Shown here: positions 13,033-26,029 of the stretch, in pieces | How positions within the stretch are numbered: the first letter of the stretch is position 1 | Layout: every line of letters starts with the position of its first letter | Assembly (NCBI RefSeq): GCF_019797845.1 | Contig: NZ_CP081864.1 | Coordinates: forward strand, 310,001 to 374,000 | Origin: Symbiopectobacterium purcellii | Lineage (GTDB): Bacteria > Pseudomonadota > Gammaproteobacteria > Enterobacterales > Enterobacteriaceae | Reading direction: 5' to 3' | DNA: 64,000 nt | Position numbers and translations under genes: made by a program | The notes under the pieces: model-generated | Databases searched by the model: none | The model's input: the letters and a program-made list of their open reading frames with translations, nothing else | What the model was told of the DNA's origin: nothing

Positions 13033-14946
<1,914 letters not shown>

Positions 14947-14951
14947 TGCGG

Positions 14952-15482
14952 CTAGCGCGCAATCTTGTATAAACAGAACCGCTCCAGCGCATGACCTGCC
15001 GGTATTTTGGGATAACTAAAGTCTTCACCGGTATTGGTCATGCCTGCCTTTATCATCACGCGCTGTGAAGCCATATGTTGCAGTGGGGTATAGGCGTAGA
15101 CCTCTGGGGCGTCGAGCTCCTCAAAGGCATAGCGAATGGCGCGTTTTGCCCCTTCCGTGGCATAACCGTTTCCCCAGTGCCGCGCTTGTAAGCGCCAGCC
15201 CGCTTCGATAAGCGGCGCATGAGGAATTCCGCTCTATTCCTGCTGTTTATGCAGACCAACAAAGCCGATGAATTCGCCGCTTGATTTCAACTCTACGGCC
15301 CAGAAGCCCCAGCCTTTGTTGGCAATATGTCTGCTGATACGGCCGGCCTGCGCATCGCTTTCTTCGCGTGTCATCAGCGCAGGGAAATAGCGCATTACCG
15401 TCGGGTCGGCATTCAATTGTGCAAAAATGGGGTAATCTTCATCGCGCCATTGGCGCAGAATCAATCTTTCCGTCTCGATCAT
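14952..15482 (-). pseudogene. GNAT acetyltransferase (RimJ/RimL type) with an in-frame amber codon
   Basis: The frame starts MIETERLILRQWRDEDYP at 15482, typical of RimJ/RimL-like N-acetyltransferases. TAG interrupts it at 15234-15236 after 82 residues. Translation of the same frame beyond the stop gives the rest of the fold: EAGWRLQARHWGNGYATEGA, where the RHWGNGYATE acetyl-CoA loop lies, then AYTPLQHMASQRVMIKAGM, ending at 14952. Total length would be 176 residues with one sense codon at the stop. CAG to TAG is the simplest single change. Without suppression the product lacks the acetyl-CoA site. Confidence 0.82.
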
Positions 15483-15602: not shown

Positions 15603-16665
15603 ATGAAAAACAATCACGAAAAAGACTCGGGTGGCACAGAAAAACTTGACGGCGGTGCGCGCCGTGTACGGCTGGAAGATATCGCCGCGCGCTGTGGTAC
15701 GTCGTTAAGCACGGTGTCCCGTGCGCTGAGCGGTGAAAAAGGGGTGAGCCAGGCGCTACGCGCGCAGATACTGGAAGTGGCGCGGGCGGTGCGCTACAGC
15801 CCCGCCGTGGAAATGGGGGGCTCCCGTATCGGTGCTGGCCGTCTCTCAGGTTGCGATGCTGGATTATCACCGTTATCAATTCAGTTGGTATGTGCTGCAA
15901 GGGCTGAAAGAGCGCGCCAAAGTGCTGGGGCTGGATCTGGTGACCCATCCACTTTCTGACAAGGGCACGCAGGCGCTGACCGATCTGCTCAATCAGGAGG
16001 ATATCGGTGGCATGCTGGCACTCACCGTCGACGATCCGGCGATTTTAGACGTTGTGGTAAACCTGAAAAAACCTGCGGTGCTGGTAAACAGCGAAGATCC
16101 GCTGATGCGACTCTCCAGCGTGATGCCGTGTAACCGCTCGGCCACCCGGATGGCGGCTGACTATCTGGTGTCGCACGGGCATCGCGATATCCTGTTTTTG
16201 ATCCATCCCGGCCGACGAACCATTGAACAACGGCATGAGGGCTGGCAGGAGTCGATGCGTTATTTTCAGCTGCCCTGCTCTGAACAGCAGGTGATCAGCG
16301 TGACCGATTGGCTTCCCGAACTGGCTGAGCAGGCGGTGGTAGCGTGGTTTCGCGAAAAAAAACGTACCTGTACCGCGATCCTGTGTGCCAATGACTCTTT
16401 GGCGTTAGGGGCGATTAACGGGTTACAGCGCTTAGGTTTGGATGTGCCAGGGGATATCTCGGTGGTGGGGATGAACGATTTGCCGCAGGCCGAATTTGCA
16501 TCGCCGCCGCTGACCACCGTGCACTTGCCGGTGCAGGAAATCGGCGTTATTGCGCTGGAGTTGTTGCAGGACATCATCGTCGGCAATGTGACGATCCCCC
16601 GGCGTATAGAACTGGCGTGCGCCATGGTCGAGCGTCAGTCTGTGGCGGCGTTAAACGCATCATGA
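15603..16665 (+). pseudogene. LacI/GalR-family regulator of the carbohydrate locus, frameshifted at a G6 run
   Basis: The first frame encodes an N-terminal arm and a LacI helix-turn-helix (VRLEDIAARCGTSLSTVSRA), then the hinge region RYSPAVEM. Just after the hinge a run of six G (15815-15820) shifts the frame. The second frame, to 16665, carries the periplasmic-binding-like effector domain (FSWYVLQGLKERAK, ILCANDSLALGAINGLQRLG, ISVVGMNDLP). Removing one G joins the two as VEMGAPVSVLAVSQ, giving 353 residues. As read, the DNA-binding domain is separated from the sugar-sensing domain. It is convergent with the MFS gene; by position it would repress the MFS/829-codon/GH105 operon. Confidence 0.83.
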
Positions 16666-16707
16666 GGGCTAATGCCCCCATGATGCGGTGCTGCGCGTGT
16701 TACGCGG

Positions 16708-18026
16708 TTATTTGAATTTCGCTCGTTCCATATTGGGGATCAGCAGCAGGTACATCACACCCCAGGCGACCAGATAGGCCACAGAACTAATGGCGAACAG
16801 CGCCCAATAATTGCCTGATGCTTCGAGTACGGCACCGATCACCGTGGAGAAGATCACGCTGCCGATCATGCCAAAGGTGCTGCCGATGCCGACCACCGAA
16901 CCCACCGCCGCGTTTGGGAACAGGTCGGACACCGATGTCAGCAGGTTTGCTGACCAGCCTTGGTGTGCAGCAGCCGCCAACCCGACGAGGGCAACGGCCA
17001 GCCACAGGCTTTCCACCTGCGTCGCGGCAAAAATCGGTATCACCGCGCAGGCGCAAATCAACATAGTGGTTTTGCGCGCTTTCGCCGCGCTGAATCCCAT
17101 ATTCATCAGCTTACCGGGTAACCAGCCTGCGCCCAGACTACCGCCAATGGCAAACAGATAGATCATGATCAACGGCACACCCAACCCGGCCATATTGATA
17201 TCGCGGGTTTCGTTCAGCCATTTGGGCAGCCAGAACAGGAAGAACCACCAGATGGGATCGGTCAGCATCTTGCCTAGCGCAAAGGCCCAGAGTTGACGGT
17301 AGCGCAGCAGATGCGTCCATTTGATGGATTCCACGCTAACGTGCTCTTCTTTGTCCTGACGGATCCAGGCCAGCTCTTCGGCAGAGGCTTTATCTTGCGG
17401 TTTGCCAAACAGGAAAAACCACGGAATAAGCCAGACAAAGCCCACCGCGCCAAGAATCAGAAACGCCCCGTGCCAGCCGTAATGGATGGCGATAAACGGA
17501 ATCAAGGCGGGAGAGACTACCACGCCAAGGTTAACCGCGACGCCCAGAATCCCTGTCGCCAGCGTGCGCTCTTTCTTGGGATGCCAGTCGGCGATGACTT
17601 TCATCGCTGCCGGGAAGTTGGCCGATTCCCCCAGTCCAAGGATGACGCGCACAATAGCAAAACCGACCACGGTGCCGACCGCCGCGTGCAACATGGCAGC
17701 GGCGCTCCAGACTACCATCGCCACGGCGTAGCTGATCTTGGTACCAAATTTGTCAATGACGCGGCCGCAAATCAGGGTGCCTGCGCCGTAGGCAATGGTG
17801 AAGGCGTTGACCAGCCAACTGTACTCCATCTGCGTCCAGCCGATATCTTTTTGCAGCATCGGCGCCAGCAACCCGAGCAGTTGGCGGTCCATGTAGTTCA
17901 CCGTGGTGGCGAACACTAGCATCGAGCAGATAGTCCAGCGATAGCGGCCCTTGGGGGGGCACTGGCGGTGGTTTGGCTGTCGCCGTGAGGGACAGCAGCT
18001 TCTTTTTGGCTAACTTGAGTGTCCAT
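16708..18026 (-). pseudogene. MFS transporter of the ACS (hexuronate/ExuT-like) type, frameshifted near its N-terminus
   Basis: The long frame from 17922 gives about 404 residues with 12 hydrophobic segments and the family motif between TM2 and TM3 (GRVIDKFGTKI). The natural start is upstream: ATG at 18026 behind CTGGAGAATCACT, encoding MDTQVSQKEAAVPHGD... . The two frames join if the C7 run (G7 on the plus strand, about 17954-17960) is read as eight C, giving ...SAPPKGRYRWTICSML and 439 residues. ACS-family MFS proteins carry hexuronates and similar anions. Adjacent GH105 and toroid genes suggest an unsaturated uronic-acid oligosaccharide as substrate (inference). Confidence 0.83.
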
Positions 18027-18038
18027 AGTGATTCTCCA

Positions 18039-18059
18039 GCTCAGGCCAGTGGCCTGAGC
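18039..18059 (-). other. Intercistronic hairpin between the MFS and 829-codon genes
   Basis: A perfect 9-bp inverted repeat, GCTCAGGCC (18039-18047) with GGCCTGAGC (18051-18059), loop AGT, with no T tract on either side. Within a minus-strand operon it may stabilise the upstream mRNA or attenuate expression of the transporter; it does not look like a full terminator. Confidence 0.55.
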
Positions 18060-18101
18060 GGTTGATGGTTAGGGTAGAGTGGTGTTGCGTGATGAAAAGG
18101 G

Positions 18102-20591
18102 CTAGAGCGTCAGCTCGCCGTGCGTACCGGCCACGCTCCAGGCATCGGGGTCAAGAGCGCGCCCTTGCGCTTCCACGCGGCCATCCGGCAGAAAGCGCAC
18201 CTCACCGTAGACCGGATCGAGGACGCGCAGGGTGCCATCGGCCTCGTGGTGCACGGTGAGATCGGCGAACGTCTGCGTAAAGTAGTCCAGCGACTGAATG
18301 TCTGCGGTGTCATTCAGGCGCACCAGCCAGGTGGTTGTTTGGCCGTGCTGCTGCACTTCACAGTGGCGTGTCGGGCCGGTTTCCACGATGTGGAAAGGCT
18401 GAGAGCCGAATAACAGCGCCATGCCCGTGCCGCTTTGCAGCGCGATACGCTCGGGGCTGATACGCACATCGCTAAAGATGTGCTGCGGCAGCCAGGCGTG
18501 GGTAAACGTCGGCTGTCCTTCGTGGGTGGTGAAGGTCAGCACTGCAAGTCCACGATACTGCTGGACGCGCGGCAGCGTACCGCAACCGCCCCAGTAGGAC
18601 GGTCTGCCAAATCCGCCGTGTAGGGCTTCGCCAGGGTGGTTGATCCACACCTGCGCTTCAGGAATATCACCAAGGCGCAGATGCAACGGTGTCTCCTGAT
18701 ATCCCCACTCGCCCCAGCGATAACCGGCAATGGAGCCCATCGCCACATGACGAGTTTTGTAGTGATACAGCTTAGCGATGCGGTTGGCCCCTTGGGCAAA
18801 GCACCACTCTTGTGCCGTCGGTTTCTGCCACACCGCAATCTCGGCCAGTGCAGGATCGAGGGTTAAACCGTGGTCGCGCAGCAGTAGCGCCAACTGTGGT
18901 AAGGCGTGGAAACGGCAACCGTAGTTGCCTTTGCCCCACAGCAGGCGGGAGATTGCGGCCAGCTCCAATGAGCGTCCAGCACGCAGTGTGTGTTCGTAAG
19001 AGCGCCCCTGAGAGGCGGTCAGCATACCTTGATGACAGGAGCGAGCGATTTGCTCAACCAACCGCTGGATGGCGCGGCAGCTGCGTGCGGCAATATCGGC
19101 GTCGGGAGAGAGCGCGGCCAACGCGGTCAGTCCTTTCAAATCCACGGGGAAATAGGGCGCTGAGTTCCACTCGGCCATCTCGCAGGATTCAAAATGGGTG
19201 AGCCAATCGAGCACGCGCTGCTTGCCGGCGGCAGCCTGCTGGCTCCCGCTGCGGTTGCTACGCACAAAGGTGGCCTGTGGGAAAAAGCTGCCTGCCAGAT
19301 AGGCGGCCGTGTGAAACAGTAGCGCATGGTTTTCCGAGAAGTACCACTGCACGTCGTTGCCCGGCTCATCCATCCAGTAGCGGAAATGCAGAATGGCGGC
19401 ATCGATTTTTTCCCGGGTGGCCGGTGCGATGGCATCACCCCAGGCGATGCGGCACCACAGCAGCGGCACCAGCGTGAAATCGGCACAGTCATGACAATCC
19501 AGCACGGAAGGCAATACCCCTTCCAGCATGGTGTGCGTTTCCTCATCGGCCATGCCGCAGGCCAGTCTGGCTAACGCTTTAACGCTGCTGTATTCCCCTT
19601 GCGTGGCGACCGTGTGCAGCGCTTCGGCAATACGTGCGGCTAAGGTCTCTGGCACAACCTGCTGTGCGGTGGCATGACAAATTTCAACGCCAAGGGTACG
19701 GCTTATTGATAACGCTCCGCTGGAGAGCGTTATCACGAAGTTGCGGAAATCCGCCGGGAGCTGTGCCGTATTGGCGATACGCGCTATCTGTTGGCCCGGA
19801 CGCAATTCGGTTTCCAACTCAATAGGGCTATCCAGCGAAATAAAATCGCCCAGTACGCGACAGGCGATGGTCAGCGGCCGGGTCGCAGGCGCAGGGAAGC
19901 AGAGGTTGATATCCCCGTGGCTGTAGGCGGAGTATTCGAAGGACACCCCTTCCAACAGCGCTTCCATTTCCGCCACGCACGATGCGCCAACCGGTGAGGT
20001 CAACGCCACATTAACCGGTATGCCCGCTACGTAATCGAGTTGGAAGAAAAAGCGAATATCCCGTTCAGCCAGATCGTCAAACCAGACCCGAACGTCGTTA
20101 AGCCCCGATTTCAAGGAAACGGTGACCTCAATGGCGTTTTCCAGGTTGCGCTGGTAGGCGGCACTCCAGGCGACCTCTTCGCCGTTAACCTGCACGATGC
20201 CGCCGCCGCAGGTGGTGAAACGCAGGGTCACCTCACCGTCGGTTTCGGCTTCCAACCCGGTTTGCGCCCAGGCACCGATACGGGTGGGACGGAACCAGAA
20301 ACCAGAAAGGTCTACGCGGTCAGAACCAAACGGGAACCACCATCGCGTCAGTTCGAACGCACCGAACGGCTGTGGTTTCTTCTCCAGATAGCGTTGCTGG
20401 AAGTCTACCCGACAAGGGTAGGTATGCGGGATGAAGTTTTTCTTTTTACTCATGAAGAAAAACGGGTCCATGTCACCCTGCATAGGGACATCGGGTACGT
20501 CATAACGCTGGCTGACAATATCGGAATAGTGTCAGTAACGAATCGCGTCACCCTGTTGTAAAGCGCGGCGATAAATAGTGTCAGTGTTCAT
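18102..20591 (-). pseudogene. Unrecognised 829-codon toroid-like protein of the GH105 locus, with TGA at codon 20
   Basis: I do not recognise this family. The frame starts MNTDTIYRRALQQGDAIRY at 20591, meets TGA at 20532-20534 (codon 20) and continues as HYSDIVSQRYDVPD... to 18102. The longest uninterrupted frame begins at 20483. TGG to TGA is the simplest change. There is no signal peptide. Residues up to about 300 are beta-rich (a GGGIVQVNGEEV strand pair). The middle is helical, like an alpha/alpha toroid, with WYFSENHALLFHTAAYLAG, EWNSAPYFPVDLKGLTAL and TASQGRSYEHTLRAGRSLEL. The C-terminus is beta-rich. That order recalls toroid polysaccharide lyases or glycosidases, but no catalytic residue can be assigned. 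It lies 35 bases after GH105 in one operon. Confidence 0.75.
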
Positions 20592-20626
20592 TGATTATTC
20601 CCCGGAAACAATGTGTTGCAGGTCAT

Positions 20627-21706
20627 TTATTCCGCAACACGGATGCCTTCACTCAAACACAATATGGCAAGCGACTGCCCGTAGGCGGTGGGTTGCAGCG
20701 GAATCTCTTTATAAAAATCAAGCGTGCGCCCCATGCGGGTGCCATACGAGACATTCTGCACCGTGCCTTGCGCATCGATATTCTGGCGTACTGCCTGTAA
20801 CGCTTTTTTCCCCGCCGCCAGCCAGCGCTCATCACCCAGGCCCAGGCGTGCGCCTTTCAGCAAGCCATAGCCAAAACCGGCGGTAGCGGAAATTTCTTCG
20901 TAGCTGTCAGGGTGGTCCAGCAGGGTATGCCAGGCCCCGCTTTCGGCTTGCAGGTCGATCAGCGTGTTCACCTGTGCGTTGAGACACTCCAGCAGATAAA
21001 GGCGTACACCGTTATCGATAGGAGCAATCTCCAGCAGATCGAGAATCCCCACGGTGATCCACGCGTTGCCACGCGCCCAGCGGGCTTGCGCAAAATTGCT
21101 TTTTTGCGCAAAGCTCCAGCCGTGGTACCACAGCCCGGTTTTCGGGTCATTGAGGTAGCGTGCGTGCAGCAAGAACTGACGTACCGCTTCGTCGACCAGT
21201 TCCTGACGGCCTGAAACCGTACCGTAATGCGCGAGGAACAGCACCACCATAAACAGTGTGTCGTCCCATATCTCCATCTGGTTCACACCGTCAGACACCA
21301 CATGCTGGAAGCCTTGTTCCGGCGTGCGTGGCAGTTTGGTTATCACATCGTTCGCCCAACCGTCCAACACGCGCGCGTAATCATCATTACGGGTGTGTTG
21401 CCACAGCAGCGACAGCGGCAGCATCGGCGCGGTGGTATTGACGTTGAGCGGCGGTAAACCCTGTGCGATTTGCTTATCAAACCAGGTGGTGAGGGTAGCC
21501 AGCAGATCGTCTCGACGGGTGAATTCCCACAGGCGGAACAGCCCGTACAGGCCCACGCCCTGCGGCCATTCCCAACTGTTGAAAGAGATATAATCTCTCG
21601 GCGTACCATCCAGGTTGGGCTCGTGAAAACGGCCTTCGTCTTTCAGGCCGAGAGTGCCTGCTATCAGGGCATCTAACTGTGCGTTCAGTGTGGTGTTGCT
21701 GCTCAT
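20627..21706 (-). CDS. GH105 family unsaturated glycuronyl hydrolase (RhiN/YteR-like)
   Basis: GH105 enzymes remove the 4,5-unsaturated uronic acid left at the non-reducing end after polysaccharide-lyase cleavage, classically from unsaturated rhamnogalacturonan disaccharides. The product is an alpha/alpha barrel with the conserved MEIWDDTLFM (the Asp used for hydration of the double bond) and WARGNAWITVG segments. I start at MSSNTTLNAQ (21706), 359 residues, behind AAGGG. The longer frame to 21757 runs into probable operator sequence. No signal peptide, so cytoplasmic. First gene of the operon with the 829-codon protein and the MFS transporter. It is the one intact gene of the locus. Confidence 0.85.
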   Translation of the reverse strand: MSSNTTLNAQLDALIAGTLGLKDEGRFHEPNLDGTPRDYISFNSWEWPQGVGLYGLFRLWEFTRRDDLLATLTTWFDKQIAQGLPPLNVNTTAPMLPLSLLWQHTRNDDYARVLDGWANDVITKLPRTPEQGFQHVVSDGVNQMEIWDDTLFMVVLFLAHYGTVSGRQELVDEAVRQFLLHARYLNDPKTGLWYHGWSFAQKSNFAQARWARGNAWITVGILDLLEIAPIDNGVRLYLLECLNAQVNTLIDLQAESGAWHTLLDHPDSYEEISATAGFGYGLLKGARLGLGDERWLAAGKKALQAVRQNIDAQGTVQNVSYGTRMGRTLDFYKEIPLQPTAYGQSLAILCLSEGIRVAE

Positions 21707-21741
21707 TGCGTCGGTTTTCCCTTGATGAAAGAGTGCGTCTT

Positions 21742-21776
21742 GCAAATGGTGTAGCATTTGCGCAAAAGAATGCGCA
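21742..21776. promoter_or_regulatory. Candidate LacI-family operators before the GH105 operon
   Basis: Three overlapping symmetries lie 36-70 bases upstream of the GH105 start: GCAAATG-n6-CATTTGC (21742-21761), the CG-centred palindrome TTTGCGCAAA (21757-21766), and a second CG-centred half-match ATGCGCAAT just beyond. LacI/GalR proteins bind CG-centred palindromes. The regulator at 15603 is the natural candidate; this is inference. Confidence 0.45.
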
Positions 21777-21916
21777 ATACGAAAATTTTTTGCGTTAATG
21801 TTTTGTGATTTTGATTAACTTTTTGCCGAGGTGCGTACCGATCAGGTTTTTTTTATTTATTAAAATAACCGGTTATGATGACGTTATCTGAGGCAGAGAA
21901 ACGGCAGCGAGAAGCG

Positions 21917-23639: not shown

Positions 23640-26029
23640 TTAGAAATCGACACTCATGCCCAATTGGAAGGTGCGCCCCGGTGCAATGGACAACTGTTGA
23701 TCGTAATAGTGTGCGTTATTGGGATCGGCATTGGTTGGTGCCTCAATGTTGCGGCTGTTCTGGTAATCCCAATATTTACGGTCAGTCAGGTTGTAGATAC
23801 CGCCGTTGACACGCACGTTTTTGGTAATGCGGTAGTAGGCGGTCAAATCCACTAAACCATAGCCCGGCACGCGCATAAAGGTGTAATTGTCGGAGCCAAG
23901 CACATTACCGTTGCCTACGCGTTTACGGCCTGCGGCGTAATCAGCGGTTTTTCCTTTGGTAAAGGTGGTGATCAACGCAGAGCCATAGGTGTTGCTCGGA
24001 TCGTCATAGGCCAGCCCAACCACGGCTTTTTGTGGCGTGACGGTATCAAGATTGACATAGCGGTCACCGGAGGCGCTGGATTTCGAGGCACCCTGGGTAT
24101 AGCCGTAAGCCAGACGGGGCTGAACCCTTTGGCCTGTTCAAACCAGGTGCCCAGTTCGAAACGTGCACTCAGCTCGCCACCGTAGATATAGGCTTTATCG
24201 CGGTTTTCAGTGAGATAGAGGGTACTGATGGTGTTTGGCAGATTGACAAACAGGTCGGGATTTCCTGCACGGCGATAGTAGCCATTGGCGATAAAGTTTT
24301 TGTAATCGTTATAGAACGCAGCAGCGCTAAGCGTTACCCCGTCCACAATACGACCTTTCAGCCCCAGCTCATAGTTATCGCTGGTTTCGGTTTTCAGATT
24401 AGGATCGCCGATCGTGGCATAAGAGCTTGATGTGCCCATATAACCCAGGGACCAGGCACCATACAGTTGCCCTGCGTTCGGGAACTGCGCACCGCGCTTA
24501 TACTGCACATAGGCCAGCAAATCCGGCTTCAGATTGTACTGGAAGGTCAGTGCTGGCAGAATTTGGCCGTCAGCGTTGGTGCCGTACATATTGGCAGTGT
24601 CATTGGCTGTCACGTTGCCATTAGTGTTGGTAAACAGGTTATCGGTATTTTCCGGCTTGGCGTGCTGCCAGGCGAAACGCACCGCAGGGATCACGGAGAA
24701 ATCACGCCCCGCCACATCCCAGGTCATCTTATCCTGCACAAAAGCACCGGCATTGATGATTTTACTGTCTGCTTGAGGGCGGCCCAATTGAATAGGTAAT
24801 CCATCAGCCGCTATGTTTTGTGCTGTCAGCGGTCTTTCGGATTCAGATTGGCGAATATTGACACCATAGCTAAACCGATGGTTACGCCACTCTTTGGTCG
24901 CTTTGCTTTCCAGCCCAAGGGTGTTGGTATCGTAGCCGCTCCACACCTGAGTTGGTGACGCCGCATTGCTGATGGTGTAGTCGTGGGCTTCGGTTTTGCT
25001 AAAGAACAGTTTGCTGTTCAGGCTGTCAAACAGCAGCCCGTCAGTCGGGGTATACAGATCGGCAACGCTTACGCCCCAGCGGCGCGTTTTGCTGTCCTGA
25101 AATGAGGTGCTGCCATCACGAGAAGAACTGCCAGAGGCGCTGACATTCCAGGTGGGGAAGTTGCTGTGGTTAAACTTCTCGTAATAGTCCACGGTACCGG
25201 TGAGCTGGTGCACGTCGGTTGCCTGCCAGATGCCGGAGGCCAATACTGCGTTGGAGTGCCAGTTGGCCGGATTGCTGTCGATGGTGGCATCACGGTGGTT
25301 TTCGGTTTCATTGCCGTCACGGCGGCTGTAGACCACTACGCCGCGCAGGGTGTCGTCACCGCCAGCGGCGGTAATCCCGTTGTGGAAACTGCGATCGGCG
25401 GAGTCATATCCAGCCTGATAGCCAAAATAGCTGTGTTTATCGCTACTGAGGAAGTTATCCGGCGATTTGGGCATAAATGAAACCGAGCCGCCCAGCGCGT
25501 TATTGCTGTTAGACACGTCGGTCGCACCGGAGGCGATGTCTACTGAGCCGTACAGGTAGGGATCGAGGTAATCACCGCGGCCGATGCCGGTGCTGCCTGC
25601 CTGAACGCGACCGCTTGGCGTGGAAGTCCCGCGATCGGTTCCTGCGGGAAGTTCAACGCCATCGATATCGATAGAGACGCGATTGTTTTCCAGTCCGCGA
25701 ATGTTGTAACCGCTATAGCCACCGCGATCGTAGCTGCTTTTGCCTGCGGTAGCCCCGGCGCTGACGCCCGGTGCGCTCACCAGTGGCTGATAGCGCATGA
25801 TATTGCCGAAGGTGTTACCGCCTTCTTTCAAGAGGTCGTTGGCCGTCAGGGTGGTTTTCGTGCCCGCTTCTCGCTCCACGCGGGGAGAAAGTACCGTCAT
25901 GGTATCCTGGGACTCTTTCTGGGCAGTATCCGATTTGCCCTGCGCGCTTTGCGCCGCATTGGCACCAAATGCCAAGCCGGACAGGACGCCGGTCAGCAAA
26001 ATGTTATTCATATTCTTATGATTTAACAT
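23640..26029 (-). pseudogene. TonB-dependent haem/haemoglobin-type receptor, frameshifted near its C-terminus
   Basis: This outer-membrane receptor starts MLNHKNMNNILLTGVLSG.. with a signal peptide ending FGANA. It has a TonB-box-like DTMTVLSP, a plug domain (YNIRGLENNRVSIDIDGVEL) and the DPYLYGSVDIASGA strand of the haemoglobin/transferrin receptor family. After about residue 640 the frame breaks: a C4 run at 24116-24119 needs one more C to continue as FSPRLAYGYTQGAS. The other frame then runs to a proper C-terminal SVDF at 23640. The repaired length is 796 residues. As read, the last beta strands are lost. Two Fur boxes precede it, and exbBD in this window could power it. Confidence 0.87.

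Follow-up and report, generated by a model that had tools for sequence, protein, structure and literature searches.

Enzymes of family GH105 release an unsaturated uronyl residue as 5-dehydro-4-deoxyuronate, and both GH105 and KduI require an unsaturated uronate or a product of it. Where does such a substrate come from in a locus of Symbiopectobacterium purcellii that encodes a GH105 enzyme next to a large protein with no sequence match to a characterized family? The locus (15603-21757) lies in the window studied here, that is, the whole stretch of 64,000 nucleotides at positions 310,001 to 374,000 of contig NZ_CP081864.1. A LacI gene on the plus strand is followed by genes for a major facilitator superfamily (MFS) transporter, the large protein, and GH105, all on the minus strand; this is the order given in a preliminary description of the DNA, and the open reading frame (ORF) list and Pfam bear it out. 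We propose, with somewhat more confidence than doubt, that the large protein is a cytoplasmic uronide eliminase working across C4-C5, which acts on an imported short saturated uronide before GH105, KduI, and KduD. The intact form of the locus is best read as a self-contained operon for a small uronic acid-containing saccharide. In the window, the LacI, MFS, and large genes are broken, and GH105 alone of the four is intact. The features are as follows.

15603..15959, plus strand: LacI regulator, DNA-binding part, first piece of the frameshifted gene (ORF list, Pfam)
15832..16665, plus strand: LacI regulator, ligand-binding part, second piece (ORF list, Pfam, comparison with relatives)
16708..17922, minus strand: MFS transporter, D-galactonate-like, ORF of 404 residues (ORF list, Pfam, NCBIfam)
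18102..20483, minus strand: large protein, open part of 793 residues, candidate uronide beta-eliminase (ORF, homologs, model of the relative L006)
18102..20591, minus strand: full 829-codon frame of the large gene, matching relatives (intact N termini of relatives)
20627..21757, minus strand: GH105/GH88 unsaturated uronyl hydrolase, 376 residues, intact, NCBIfam NF051900 "BglB" (ORF, Pfam, NCBIfam, YteR alignment)
21771..21794, minus strand: operator-like element directly upstream of GH105 (imperfect inverted repeat GCAA...TTGC)

The GH105 assignment was confirmed. The ORF, whose first start codon is at 21757, matches PF07470 at 8e-88 (295 bits against a cut-off of 26.6), and its Asp166 aligns with position 143 of YteR, which we take to be the catalytic aspartate. 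Two more GH105/GH88 genes occur in the same genome (L001, C1:3702940-3703884, and L003, C1:1156976-1157914), with 41% and 37% identity to the enzyme of the locus, and an open kduI frame is found elsewhere in it (3575392-3576225). The best match of the transporter, among 25 of 47 families listed, is the D-galactonate transporter model TIGR00893 (1.3e-69). It stays under the cut-off of that model (235 versus 395 bits), and its frame is shortened here.

Gene neighborhood in other genomes

With each species represented by a single genome, a scan for the large gene returned 47 loci; by title, most are from Enterobacterales, Rhizobiales, and Rhodobacterales, and two are from Bacillota. Their content was scored by tblastn (E of 1e-10 or lower, identity of at least 40%, at least a quarter of the query), and the view of each locus reached some 7 kb in either direction. 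GH105 is found beside the large gene in 41 of the 47 loci, some of which come from close kin, and this association exceeds chance; at the limits used, it is absent from L026, L034, L038, L047, L048, and L049. Furthermore, kduI is present in 29 loci and kduD in 13. The transporter, in contrast, varies: an MFS gene occurs in just 12 loci, all Enterobacterales by title and broken copies included, an ATP-binding cassette (ABC) transporter in 27, two of them Bacillota, a tripartite ATP-independent periplasmic (TRAP) transporter in 6, and none of these in 2. Since the MFS protein is one of three transporter types beside the large gene, it is not a defining part of the system, as it had been taken to be from the window.

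Individual loci extend these counts. In Pantoea ananatis (L015), kduI, kduD, GH105, and the large gene stand in a row; annotated operons of Shinella and Phyllobacterium hold, in this order, genes for LacI, GH88, KduI, the large protein (annotated as hypothetical), an ABC transporter, and KduD, and a Pseudosulfitobacter locus holds GH88, TRAP, kduD, LacI, kduI, and a hypothetical gene. Taken with the kduI and kduD counts and the toroid-lyase-like fold described below, these operons support in outline the intracellular pathway for a uronic acid saccharide that had been suggested. A remote homolog from the window's own family (L066, about 30% identity) is found with GH88, ABC, and LacI genes, and L071 has the same layout, as judged from its ORFs only. 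Another, on a plasmid of Rhizobium sp. NLR16a (L072), lies beside GH88, GH28, and ABC transporter genes, a possible sign that this branch acts on a pectin-type substrate. In Paenibacillus senegalensis (L047), the neighbors of a 32% homolog are ABC genes and the genes for a GFO/IDH oxidoreductase and the tagaturonate epimerase UxaE. A GH105 gene on a Salmonella plasmid had no related neighbors within 6 kb.

Besides LacI, GH105, and MFS, representatives of 20 of the 42 neighbor clusters were put to Pfam. Nine had no match (2 of 10 and 7 of 10), several of the nine overlapping by position a known gene on the opposite strand. The further names were a KduD-type dehydrogenase, a GntR regulator, and a luciferase-like protein, and there was no other lyase among these annotated clusters.

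An element of 23 bp, GCAAAAAWTTTTCRNATTGCGCA, was spotted by eye in the upstream regions. With at most two mismatches, it precedes the operon in 27 of the 47 loci, in Enterobacterales and Rhizobiales alike, and is missing from 20. It is an imperfect inverted repeat; no perfect palindromic operator upstream of GH105 was common to the loci. One site was found in the S. purcellii genome at up to three mismatches and one in each of four relatives' genomes, with none for a reversed control pattern, and a second site for a coregulated secreted enzyme was sought in these same genomes and not found. Among 295 genomes of the order, that of S. purcellii alone has the element at two mismatches or fewer, and G097 carries the large gene without it at this limit. 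We infer that LacI binds the element. Upstream of the operon in the Kosakonia loci L007 and L009 are palindromes resembling the KdgR box, suggesting a tie of the operon to the pectin regulon.

Predicted fold and candidate site of the large protein

By sequence, the match to a characterized family that would have refuted the preliminary description was not found: the large protein has no match above noise in Pfam, NCBIfam, or the PDB sequences when searched singly, or in Pfam and the PDB when searched through 20 relatives. PA14 and beta-galactosidase binding-domain models match weakly (best E of 0.012 and 0.018), each in 2 of 21 members. A sequence relation to heparinase II/III was considered and rejected. 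None of the families that the 21 members match at an E of 1 or lower is PF07940, and hhalign gave a probability of 0.7% against 18 proteins from PF07940 loci, with 0.18% for GH105 and 0.28% for MFS as controls; in this set, each locus contributed its longest ORF as the presumed PF07940 protein, and 18 of 20 passed the length filter. When hydropathy was scanned, neither the large protein nor GH105 (those of L006 and L052) began with a signal-like stretch, consistent with the earlier view of the large protein as signal-less, and a solute-binding protein used as a control showed the expected hydrophobic start. Among the papers listed in searches of the open-access literature, none dealt with the large protein or the operon, and no tested activity was found for the family.

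The AlphaFold2 model of the intact relative L006 (predicted local distance difference test score of 89) has an N-terminal beta part, an (alpha/alpha) toroid, in agreement with the toroid-like middle described before, and a C-terminal beta-sheet domain. When the toroid and sheet were searched with Foldseek, all 12 matches at an E of 0.001 or lower were uronic acid lyases or dermatan sulfate epimerase; template modeling (TM) scores were low, at 0.38 to 0.48. The order of a toroid followed by an antiparallel sheet, as in polysaccharide lyases, is present in the L006 model and in all 12 matches.

The closest folds by both Foldseek and VIA-align are the PL35 glycosaminoglycan lyases (GAGase II/VII, BcPL35), which have a toroid plus sheet like the large protein and an Asn/Tyr/His set to which its conserved residues may correspond (PMC12088678). 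Identity is about 10%, and PL35 enzymes act on glycosaminoglycans. The large protein has some 300 additional N-terminal residues and lacks a signal-like start, and its operon includes a transporter and, in many cases, kduI. The same body is found in the PL17 and PL15 alginate lyases (Alg17c at 2.4e-6 and Atu3025 at 2.0e-4; about 8 to 9% identity). Several of these alginate lyases act on oligosaccharides, and their substrate and operon partners differ from those of the large protein.

Across 49 aligned proteins, down to 28% identity with L006, the residues Glu420, Asn421, His422, His427, Glu474, Asn476, Tyr480, Arg530, Tyr532, Lys612, Asn651, and His698 are invariant (L006 numbering). His652 is kept in 48 of the 49, and His610 in 43, being lost in six of the seven remote rows. 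The spacing from Asn421 to Tyr480 is 59 residues, compared with 53 to 63 as worked out from a table in PMC12088678 that gives the catalytic residues of PL8, 12, 15, 17, 21, 23, 35, and 39; in the same source, an Asn-His pair in the same order occurs in one PL39 and one PL15 enzyme. At the level of the motif, the Asn/His pair, the Tyr, and a sheet-domain His may thus be likened to a lyase site, whose geometry in space we infer.

Because GH105 and KduI need an unsaturated uronate or its product, the annotated neighbor clusters include no other lyase, and the large protein combines a lyase-like fold and residues with the lack of a signal-like start, we propose that elimination by this protein takes place in the cytoplasm. 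LacI would repress the operon through the element ahead of GH105, and the transporter (MFS here, ABC or TRAP elsewhere) would import a short, saturated, 4-substituted uronide. The large protein may hold this uronide in a groove between the toroid and the sheet domain, where Asn421 and His422 would neutralize the carboxylate and, as suggested by the presumed geometry of the site, Tyr480 and a sheet-domain His would serve as base and acid. The 4-substituent would depart by beta-elimination, leaving a 4,5-unsaturated uronide, from which GH105 would then release the unsaturated residue as 5-dehydro-4-deoxyuronate. KduI and KduD, whose genes stand in the same loci of other bacteria, would carry this product towards 2-keto-3-deoxygluconate. 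Import and breakdown inside the cell thus remain as in the preliminary description. The imported sugar, however, is more likely saturated than unsaturated, because a cytoplasmic eliminase would be idle on a disaccharide that is already unsaturated; the unsaturation is probably made inside.

Several observations weigh slightly against the lyase reading. Toroid-only enzymes score close behind the lyases in the fold search, the TM scores of the lyase matches are low, and the annotation of neighbors covers just part of the clusters. Two others, transporters of the small-anion kind and the lack of a gene for a leaving sugar among the annotated genes, speak for the main rival to that reading, a uronide dehydratase. 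Such an enzyme would remove water from a saturated uronic acid at the nonreducing end, making the substrate of GH105 and replacing a glucuronidase. There are precedents: GH154 (BcGDH; PMC12269599) and P29_PDnc (PMC8511951) follow a like pairing logic, an eliminase priming the residue for an unsaturated uronyl hydrolase of GH88 or GH105, and both come from Bacteroidota, unlike the large protein. However, the modeled protein shows a complete toroid-plus-sheet body together with an Asn-His...Tyr set as in glycosidic lyases, while BcGDH relies on two Tyr and an Arg instead (PMC12269599) and P29_PDnc loses activity when an Asp, a Lys, or an Arg is changed (PMC8511951); the missing gene for a leaving sugar also has to be read against a view of about 7 kb per side. 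We therefore regard a dehydratase as possible but doubtful. Rather unlikely, too, is its broader form: a new enzyme family, founded by the large protein, in which a lyase scaffold serves the cytoplasmic dehydration of saturated glucuronides, so that Pseudomonadota could use plant and algal glucuronides with no glucuronidase. If true, this would be a third, separately evolved case of a dehydratase paired with an unsaturated hydrolase.

Probable decay of the operon in S. purcellii and spread of the large gene

The 829-codon gene described from the window exists as a frame shared with relatives (20591 to 18105), but codon 20 is a TGA (20534-20532), and the remaining open ORF has 793 residues. Similarly, the four-gene set is present, but LacI and MFS are frameshifted. 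Both domains of LacI, helix-turn-helix and periplasmic-binding-like, are found; they share one frame in L004 and in L006 but lie in separate frames here. The ORF for MFS, which starts at 17922, has 404 residues, compared with 439 in L006, the first 35 or so lying in another frame up to about 18026. The nearest relatives of the large protein, at 92 to 95%, are three Candidatus Symbiopectobacterium records and one labeled Serratia marcescens (L005, L006, L044, L004). All four genes are in single frames in L004 and L006. In a Kluyvera genomosp. 3 locus (L014), the operon looks broken in several frames.

The breaks in the window could be sequencing errors in an operon that works, since the MFS frameshift sits in a run of seven G, a usual site of such errors, and that of LacI was placed some twelve bases away from a stretch of six G. 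We consider this unlikely, although for the two frameshifts taken by themselves an error is conceivable. The remaining break, in the large gene, is a stop codon in frame, and adjoining genes are broken as well: an acetyltransferase-like frame (14946-15482, minus strand) has one internal TAG, and a TonB-dependent receptor (23640-26029, minus strand) is split over two overlapping frames, both pieces of which match a beta-barrel model in order. Moreover, in the sister genomes L005 and L044, the breaks in the operon fall elsewhere. We take the breaks here and in the neighboring genes as gene decay in a symbiont lineage; judged by its reading frames, the operon of this genome is decaying and, as a whole, probably nonfunctional. 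A high pseudogene load is reported for Symbiopectobacterium endolongispinus (PMC13345370).

The large gene is rare in sampled whole genomes. It was found in 5 of 197 genomes of the order (one only at 9.5e-5) and in 9 of 398 of the phylum, both counts including S. purcellii, and in 200 plasmid records, 123 of them from Rhizobium; the Rhizobium rows inspected have about 30% identity to the query L049, the Gracilibacillus form. At least 776 relatives of the protein were scored in a search among 8000 candidates. Among the 120 listed, those with names are mostly "hypothetical protein", and a few "PA14 domain" or "six-hairpin".

Remaining alternatives, related systems, and significance

A protein that is lyase-like in fold could carry out another chemistry, as a C5 epimerase or a hydrolase of acidic disaccharides. 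This appears quite improbable, as the adjoining GH105 and KduI depend on a product that is unsaturated, and the annotated neighbor clusters contain no other lyase. Least credible of all is an operon for plain beta-galactosides, with GH105 as the beta-galactosidase of the NCBIfam equivalog NF051900 "beta-galactosidase BglB" (513 bits in the window and 509 to 544 in three relatives, cut-off of 420, by score only) and the large protein as an accessory glycosidase, given the kduI and kduD genes of the other loci and the conserved Asp aligned with position 143 of YteR. No study underlying the BglB name came up in searches of the open-access literature.

The proposed eliminase also differs from other systems with related chemistry or genes. 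The rhamnose-glucuronate lyases PL27 and PL42 detach a sugar from O4 of glucuronate, so that an unsaturated residue remains (PMC8377490). PL27 has a sandwich ahead of its barrel, and no sheet domain is mentioned after the barrel, while the large protein ends in one; PL42 is close to GH145 beta-propeller proteins (PMC8377490), unlike the toroid-type large protein. Whole-model matches to PL27 (5no8, TM score of 0.12) and to GH2 (TM scores near 0.12) were weak and were set aside. The rhiTN rhamnogalacturonide system pairs GH105 with a transporter in pectin-degrading enterobacteria. To our knowledge, it has no counterpart of the large protein.

Overall, the pathway outlined in the preliminary description is partly supported, with three corrections: the unsaturation is probably made inside the cell, the MFS transporter is not a defining part, and the copy in the window has decayed. 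If an eliminase is confirmed, the gain would be a further enzyme family, an operon whose transporter type is exchanged between lineages, and a regulator site that different classes share. It would also be relevant to the suggestion that bacteria may widely remove uronates by elimination (PMC12269599). The loci predict a clear uronic acid step in rhizobia, plant-associated enterobacteria, and marine Rhodobacterales.

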